NCBI GenBank assembly: GCA_963971535.1 | Contig: OZ020589.1 | Span: 96,608,121 to 96,672,120 of the forward strand | Reading direction: 5' to 3' | Source: Notolepis coatsorum | Taxonomy: Eukaryota > Chordata > Actinopteri > Aulopiformes > Paralepididae | DNA: 64,000 nucleotides | Shown: piece after piece, positions 47,101 to 50,100 of the stretch | How the letters are laid out: each line of letters begins with the position of its first letter | How positions within the stretch are numbered: the stretch's first letter is position 1 | Position numbers and translations under genes: made by a program | The notes under the pieces: model-generated | Database searches by the model: none | Seen by the model: the letters and a program-made list of their open reading frames with translations, nothing else | What the model was told of the DNA's origin: nothing

Positions 47101-50100
47101 GTGTAATGTTGAGACCGGTGGGTCTCAGGGGGTTAACATCATGTGGATACACACACACAGCGTACCGGGACTTGTTGGCGATGAGCTCGTCTTCGTGGTA
47201 CCACTCATGGGTGGGCGGCGGCTCGGCTGTGAAGAGGCAGCGGAGAAGCGCTGCTTCGTTCCTCATCACCACCACGCTCTCTGGCTCCACCACAGGCTGG
47301 GGGTAGCTCTCATCTGTCAGGGTGGAGGGTAGTGTTTTGGTTAGTGTTGTGTTTAGGTTAGAGGTGCAGAGACCGCGGCTTTTGCGAGTTACCAGTTGAT
47401 CGCTATATTATATTTCATCATGTCATATGAAAAATTCATCCATCTTCTCTGAAAAATTCTGCTGATGAATGATTGATAGTGAAGAAAGCCCACAAATCAT
47501 TTGACAAGACTTTTCCAGTCAACAGTGAACTGCTAAAAATAGAAAGGGGGTGAACTGAAATCTCATTCAGCAGTCAGTTTTCACAAGATATGCGATAAAG
47601 GTGGCTACTACAGCCTCCTTTTGATAGGTGTGAAAGGTAGCACTCATTCTTCTGGAGACAGCTATGCTAGCACTCATTCTTCTGGATAGTTATGCTAGCA
47701 CTCATTCTCCTGGAGACAGTTATGCTAGCACTCATTCTCCTGGATAGTTATGCTAGCACTCATTCTTCTGGAGACAATTATTCTAGCACTCATTCTTCTG
47801 GACAGCTGTGCTAGCAATCATTCTCCTGGAGACCGTTATGCTAGCAGTGCACTCATTCTCCTGGAGACAGTTATGCTAGCAGTGCACTCATTCTCCTGGA
47901 GACAGTTATGCTAGCACTCATTCTTCTGGAGACAATTATTCTAGCACTCATTCTTCTGGACAGCTGTGCTAGCACTCATTCACTTGGACAGCTATGCTAG
48001 CACTCATTCACTTGGAGACAGCTATGCTAGCACTCATTCTCCTGGAGACAGCTGTGCTAGCACTCATTCTCCTGGAGACAGTTATGCTAGCACTCATTCT
48101 CCTGGAGACAGTTATGCTAGCACTCATTCTCCTGGAGCCTGGAGACAGCTGTGCTAGCACTCATTCACTTGGAGACAGCTATGCTAGCACTCATTCTCCT
48201 GGAGACAGCTATGCTAGCACTCATTCACTTGGAGACAGCTATGCTAGCACTCATTCACTTGGAGACAGTTATGCTAGCACTCATTCTCCTGGAGACAGCT
48301 GTGCTAGCACTCATTCTCCTGGAGACAGTTATTATAGCACTCATTTTTCTGGAGACAGCTGTGCCAAAATTAAACTTGGGTGGAGTAAATAATAAAATAA
48401 ATACCGTAACAGCATTTTAGGTCTTGCCTCAACATGCTTGTTCCATGTTAGTTAAAAATCAGTCTTCAAATACAATTGGTTTGTACTGTTCAGTAACTTG
48501 CAAAATAGCCATTAGAAACCTTGAGGGTGACGTTGAAGGTGAAGTTGGTGCTGTTGCACGAGTGCCCAGTGGCAGTGTTGTTAAACTCACCGATGACATT
48601 GAGGGTGAAGTTGGTGCTGTTGCATGAGTGCCCAGTGGCAGTGTTGTTAAACTCACTGATGACGTTGAGGGTGAAGTTGGTGCTGCTGCATGCGTGCCCA
48701 GTGGCAGTGTTGTTAAACTCACCGATGACGTTGAGGGTGAAGTTGGTGCTGCTGCATGCGTGCCCGGCGGCGTTGTTGGCGCAGCAGTAGTAGAGGCCGT
48801 TGTCGTCAGGGGAGACGCTAGGCAGAGTGAGGGTGCGCTCCTTGTTGTTGAGCTGGTGGTTCTTCTCCTGCAGGCGCCTGCCGTCTTTGTGCCAGTGACA
48901 GGTCGGCCTGGGCGGGAGAGCGGGGAGAGAGTTTCTGGTTTATTTTCACTGCAAACGTGTTGGAGGTGCATCTGTTATTGCAGTGCACTGGTGGTGATGT
49001 TAGCATTTTGTTAATTTGATATCAGGGTTGAATTATATTTCTAATTCTATCACATTTAAAAACAGAAATCGCCGGTTACTTGCTAATTTACATTTTGTCA
49101 TTTAGCTGACGCTTTTATCCTGTCAAGTGTCAACATGTCAGCAGTCAACGGCGAAAGATTGTTCGGGTTTCGGTTGTCCCAACTGTGGTGGGAAGTTAGT
49201 TCCACCAGTGTGGAGCGAGAACTGACCCTGCCGGAGCTCGGATGGGAGTCGGTCTGAGGCGCCAGAGGATGTAGAGCGGAGGGGTCTTGAGGGTGTCTTT
49301 ATTTATTATTCTATTGCCGTTTTCTGGTGATAACGGCTTATTATTTAGTTATCTCGATATAACAAAATCAGTTTTCTTGTGATAACGGATACATTTTTTT
49401 CATTATCTCGATATAACAGTCTGTTTACTCGTGATAATTAGATTAATTTCTTGAAGGCTGAAATCAGGACGGAGTGATCACATGATCCAGCTCGCAATCA
49501 TCTCAGAGTTCTGCACATGGTTCTGGATAATCATCTTATAATTATGGATACAAGTCTTGTTATATCGAGATAATGAAATAAATGAATCCGTTAACATGAG
49601 AAAATGGACTTTGTTATATCAAGATAACAAAATAAGTCGTTATCACGAGAAAACGCCAATAAAATAATAAATAAAGACGTGGCTGTTCTCTGCTCCCGTA
49701 CATAACTCATCCTCAGTCCTGACCTTTGTTAAATTATTTTCAACCCTCTGAAAGCTACTGATTATCCAGCAGATCATCCAACACTAACATCACTGTCTTT
49801 TGAAGGCTGTACTGAGGTCAGTTTTTATTCAACCGCGAAGCCATCATTTCTGCATTACAAATTCTTGGTGGTCAAGGTGGCAGTGTATTTATTTTCCATT
49901 GTTACAAAAAGGACCCCACATTCTGTGGATGAAGACACCGCCATGTCTCGTTCGTTCTAGTGATACATCTGGTAACATGACAAGGATGAAAGAATTGTCA
50001 CACCAGACCATTGAGGTTCTAGCAGTGAAAGTGAGTCTCAATTTGTATACTATTGTTGCTTTAAAGAACATCCTGGGTTGACTGAGTTGAAAGTGAATTG

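Follow-up and report, generated by a model that had tools for sequence, protein, structure and literature searches.

Minisatellite-sized repeats at exon–intron borders have been described in human duplicated genes, wherein they can alter splicing (De Grassi and Ciccarelli 2009, PMC2812944), and most of the coding cases in Table 2 of that study keep the reading frame. Duplication across exon–intron borders is also a route by which introns are made in potato and other organisms (PMC4974935, PMC3443670). In fishes, the MSTN-2 and GH genes of Sparus bear polymorphic intron repeats, with extra splice sites predicted in intron 1 of MSTN-2 (PMC3045353).

The array described here, in which head-to-tail copies span the border of exon 4 of a fish PTK7 gene, is an internal tandem repeat at an exon–intron boundary, as recovered both by TRF and as a repeat family. 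It resembles the repeats of PMC2812944 in having minisatellite-sized units at such a border; however, those are variable repeats in human segmental duplications that are backed by transcripts, whereas here, in a fish receptor gene described from its sequence, every unit has its own 5′ splice site. Like the reported intron gains (PMC4974935, PMC3443670), it multiplies splice signals through a tandem duplication that crosses or adjoins a splice border, but in the cases outlined there the new intron comes with its own 3′ site, whereas by eye only the 5′ site is multiplied in PTK7. The presence of several donors facing one acceptor recalls the tandem 5′ splice sites of PMC2423196 and those of DOK7 intron 4 (PMC5585400), and the further PTK7 exon 4 donors indeed have GT, a common phase and an open frame when spliced in silico. 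Yet spacing among the former is mostly 4 nt and DOK7 has donors of unequal strength, as those accounts present them, whereas each PTK7 donor belongs to a 66-bp copy that includes the exon end. The Sparus genes share the location of the repeats inside fish introns, but the account of them (PMC3045353) describes, as far as it goes, no copied exon end with a donor. Among the literature titles and abstract openings listed, we met with no minisatellite combining an exon end and its donor, whether in PTK7 or in another fish gene, which is no proof of absence. A minisatellite unit comprising an exon end and a 5′ splice site, occurring twice in one gene, was likewise absent from those listings, yet it is of the same kind as the known border repeats.

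The ptk7a gene and the array at the end of exon 4

PTK7 is a Wnt and planar-polarity co-receptor. In the window, i.e., the whole stretch of 64,000 nucleotides of Notolepis coatsorum DNA that was analysed, tblastn with the proteins P0122 (PTK7a of Osmerus) and P0121 recovers the PTK7 exons from the third through the final one, collinear along the minus strand from 52.3 kb to 2.0 kb; exons 1–2 (P0122 residues 1–121) had no match in the window at an E-value of 0.05. Comparison of the pseudokinase part with human PTK7 (6vg3) gives a match with an E-value of 4e-90. In a tree of 38 rows, the window gene groups with Lampris ptk7a and Diretmus ptk7-like (100/99), and this group falls inside the clade holding the named ptk7a rows, with Osmerus next (89/86, not starred) and also the most alike of the 37 relatives in the tree (79% over 797 columns). 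On these comparisons the gene is a teleost ptk7a. Its position would suit a teleost close to the base of the neoteleosts, in a tree whose rows include no member of the Stomiiformes, Aulopiformes or Myctophiformes. No protein that looks like one of the same species occurs among the matches listed (the best 120 of 383, the best 120 of 265 and 28 of 28).

TRF reports a 66-bp tandem array of 3.6 copies with a 95% match (score 420) on the minus strand, and a second repeat-finding method recovers the same array as its family D4; such regularity excludes chance similarity. In each unit, ~43 bp come from the end of PTK7 exon 4 and ~23 bp from the intron, although the copied segment may start further up in the exon, at about NN. 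Reading from 48785 down to 48500 on the minus strand, one passes from the exon 4 end into three more copies of its last ~43 bases, each lying directly behind an identical stretch of 23 bases, GTGAGTTTAACAACACTGCCACT. The copies differ from one another by 1–4 of the 40–43 exon-derived bases, copies 1 and 2 being the closest. Hence, the tandem copying of the exon 4 end together with its 5′ splice site, which a preliminary description had proposed from the letters of the window, stands in both the TRF array and the repeat families, and the gene, exon, phase and acceptor were correctly named there (PTK7 exon 4, phase 1, acceptor 47313). The features of this region, all on the minus strand and with splice borders marked by a slash, are:

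48723..48907, minus: PTK7 exon 4 (second half of Ig2) with its ancestral end, 185 nt; from acceptor and donor contexts and tblastn with Osmerus PTK7a P0122 residues 165–227 (74.6%)
48528..48765, minus: 66-bp tandem array of exon 4 end and intron 4 start; TRF and repeat family D4
48717..48722, minus: donor 1, TCG/GTGAGT, ancestral by comparison with the short relatives; U1 duplex −8.9 kcal/mol
48651..48656, minus: donor 2, TCA/GTGAGT, phase 1, adding 22 residues; U1 duplex −5.2 kcal/mol
48585..48590, minus: donor 3, TCG/GTGAGT, phase 1, adding 44 residues; U1 duplex −8.9 kcal/mol
48520..48590, minus: fourth, partial unit, ending AAG/GTTTCT in phase 0; from in silico splicing
47638..48364, minus: unrelated 30-bp minisatellite of 24 copies, also in intron 4; TRF
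47166..47313, minus: exon 5 (start of Ig3), acceptor CCCTGACAG/AT; from sequence context and tblastn

The intron before exon 4 contains an inverted-repeat element (49295–49678) with 48-nt outer arms that are 92% complementary.

Donors and predicted receptor forms

In silico splicing bears out most of what had been claimed for the donors: the GTGAGT sites at 48722, 48656 and 48590 are all in phase 1 with no stop between them, their joining to 47313 adds 0, 22 or 44 residues with the frame intact, and the residue at the exon 5 join is Asp (G/AT) or Asn (A/AT). Calling the three donors equivalent was too strong, for while donors 1 and 3 are identical in 9-mer and in U1 energy, the middle one, with an A at −1, shows weaker U1 pairing (−5.2 versus −8.9 kcal/mol). 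From donor 48590 exon 4 would measure 317 nt, and the open read-through frame ends at a TGA at 48492. A fourth candidate donor, AAG/GTTTCT at 48519, is in phase 0, would shift the frame and is weak (−4.1), and was rejected. Each unit contains CAG triplets that by eye are not accompanied by a pyrimidine tract, and a new 3′ splice site is not evident in the array.

The copied segment would comprise the FG turn and the G strand of Ig2, as placed by the predicted fold of a relative, the seahorse PTK7 fragment P0230 (pLDDT 79.4, pTM 0.47), the only protein folded for this purpose, with strands at 203–211, 214–217 and 222–224; the G-strand duplication proposed earlier leaves out the turn. Similarly, the count of two sequons per unit fits the first unit, whereas the second has three. 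After joining to exon 5, the gain in the +22 form is three sequons (NNT, NFT and a new junctional NES that arises because of its junction Asn), and in the +44 form it is five along with two Cys, one Cys being added per unit. Over exons 4–5, sequons accordingly number 2 in the +0 form, 5 in the +22 form and 7 in the +44 form, with Cys counts of 5, 6 and 7, respectively. One Cys is left over in the +22 form, and the +44 form gains two. The partnerless Cys of the former would sit beside a Cys kept in 168 of the 169 motif-matched relatives (of 225), and the third Cys (C217 of P0230) is near-invariant in an alignment of 37 rows. The in-phase donors and the open frame are as the preliminary description had them, but the diversification of the ectodomain that it drew from them is unproven.

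The silent and replacing changes stand at 1:4 between copies 1 and 4, 1:2 between copies 1 and 3 and 2:2 between copies 3 and 4, ranging over the six copy pairs from 0:0 to 2:2 apart from the 1:4. With these counts resting on 9 silent and 33 replacing sites, the changes are too few, and coding constraint is therefore neither shown nor excluded.

Relatives and a second donor array

The motif C[SN]..N[FY][TS][LI] at the exon 4 end occurs once in 237 of 253 collected PTK7 proteins, is absent in 16 and is found twice in none, as against four occurrences in the read-through of the window. Among 28 short relatives, 27 have NFT..(I/V/T)G at the point of donor 48722 followed by unlike sequence, the Gly codon being what G/GT gives, and the remaining one continues into exon 5 with an Asp at the join; the 27 are not all independent, as a few have common tails. 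Given the single motif and the Gly of the short relatives, 48722 is the ancestral donor and the array is a derived feature. The exon 4–5 junction is insert-free in 223 of 225 listed PTK7 proteins, which come from the best 120 of 383 and the best 120 of 265 matches with several records for some species. In the annotated PTK7-like protein of Diretmus argenteus (P0216), a 12-residue insert, GEFGNTSPGEEP, lies exactly at this junction after NFTLDVI and begins like the GEFNNTATG of the window, though past GEF the likeness consists of N, T and G in register and is weak and judged by eye. This insert may represent a shifted donor in a sister lineage. Lampris (P0205), the nearest to Diretmus in the tree, is without it. 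A 26-residue insert in Dissostichus (P0010) lies earlier, replaces the motif and is unlike the array, and was judged unrelated.

We scanned 17 PTK7 donors for copies of their own 20-mer (at most 4 mismatches) over 1500 nt downstream. Such copies occur at only two of them, namely the exon 4 donor, with two downstream copies that are both in frame, and the donor of a pseudokinase exon ending at 13598. The latter region features:

13598..13678, minus: pseudokinase exon GDLKQ...STKQK, 81 nt, phase 0–0, with its end and donor multiplied; from tblastn and sequence
12953..13632, minus: second donor array, with a unit of 40–48 bp comprising the exon end and GTAAGA; from TRF and the donor-copy scan

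Here, donor 13597, whose following exon starts at base 10368, has 14 downstream copies, of which 13 have GT, one is in frame and six equal its U1 energy (−9.5). An in-frame stop lies 30 nt past this donor and all 14 copies lie beyond it; every copy is thus non-productive because read-through meets the stop, and either the first donor is used or the 81-nt exon is skipped in frame. If the gene works and the exon is not simply skipped, this argues for the use of the first donor. By multiplying a donor behind a stop, the second array also indicates that extra donor copies arise in ptk7a without useful isoforms. Its unit varies in length, whereas both donor spacings in the exon 4 array measure 66 nt (3 × 22); this constancy and the open frame may be chance, given how few the copies are.

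Tandem arrays of period at least 10 cover 10.3% of the window (TRF). Inside arrays lie 2 of the 17 donors against 1.76 expected from circular shifts (P 0.54), so that an exon-end array needs no special cause beyond tolerance. Within 20 nt of an array lie 5 of the 17 donors against 2.2 expected (P 0.051), a borderline and post hoc result that could hint at a donor-specific cause. In this comparison the donors of exon 14 and kin3 were set one base early, with no effect on the counts.

Origin of the array and competing explanations

The array is probably a minisatellite that grew from the exon end and is tolerated, with the first donor working and some leak to the +44 form. On this route, a copy of the exon 4 end would have been placed just inside intron 4 of ptk7a and then, through slippage or unequal exchange, expanded into a minisatellite of 66-bp units that each include a 5′ splice site. 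Both arrays end within an exon-derived stretch rather than intron, which would fit a seed consisting of a short exon-end copy in the intron that was later expanded. The array would be tolerated because the ancestral donor 48722 is intact and would still give a normal receptor, the extra copies merely lengthening the intron when that donor is used. The first donor would serve most transcripts; donor 3, which matches donor 1 in its 9-mer and lies closer to the acceptor, would probably serve a minority, putting 44 residues, five sequons and two Cys between Ig2 and Ig3, and the weaker donor 2 would be little used. By its sequence, the pseudokinase exon has been struck by the same process. The copies seem closer to a largely harmless DNA repeat than to a designed switch, and nothing indicates regulation or a selected function of the longer forms.

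Where equal donors compete, the intron-proximal one is often favoured. The choice of 5′ splice site has been described as depending on position and SR proteins, with SRSF1 pushing it towards the intron-proximal site (PMC5585400). Such a preference would pull towards the +44 form, against first-donor use.

An unlikely alternative is a multi-isoform switch, wherein splicing draws on all three donors to a comparable extent, 0, 22 or 44 residues are placed between Ig2 and Ig3 and the copy number varies between individuals. The common 9-mer and U1 energy of donors 1 and 3, the shared phase and open frame, the unit being a multiple of three and the GEFGNTSPGEEP insert of the sister lineage at the same junction would all suit it; but donor 2 is weaker, no clear sign of coding constraint is seen among copies with so few changes, the +22 form has an unpaired Cys, the second array multiplies donors to no useful end and Lampris is without the insert. 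Its evolutionary extension, which strikes us as distinctly improbable, would make the exon 4 donor of ptk7a a copy-number-coded length switch in the neoteleost branch: starting from a donor shift of the Diretmus type, in-frame donors would set the number of G strands, sequons and Cys between Ig2 and Ig3, and individuals would differ in their ectodomain.

We regard as very unlikely a constitutive shift, in which the intron-proximal donor 48590 has taken over and the normal receptor is 44 residues longer. The intron-proximal preference between equal 5′ splice sites, in line with what PMC5585400 reports, would favour it, as would the lengthened form in the one Diretmus ptk7-like record among the matches listed. 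It would nevertheless require an exon of 317 nt and the FG turn and G strand to be added twice where nearly all of the listed relatives have no insert, and at the second array it is the farthest-upstream donor that must work unless the exon is skipped. An assembly artefact with a wrong copy number or a mis-joined array is hardly credible: the 200 N in the window make it a gapped scaffold and repeats are often miscounted, but the flanks are coherent and the differences among copies mean that this is not one unit pasted repeatedly, even if the exact copy number could still be wrong.

The gene offers a natural test of spliceosome choice among near-identical 5′ splice sites, since exon 4 has three that are in frame and the pseudokinase exon has fifteen copies, of which 14 have GT. 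Should the first donor prevail every time, the gene would show how minisatellites can expand harmlessly across exon ends; should it not, receptor length would follow repeat number.

Elsewhere in the window, three further minisatellites start within 16 nt of PTK7 donors, at 9670–10200 (donor 10216), 45381–45722 (45738) and 30994–31104 (31107), and close before acceptors at 2194–2246, 27578–27709 and 31274–31347. At 57363–58951 on the minus strand, open frames in the ORF list resemble, by eye, a broken reverse transcriptase element.
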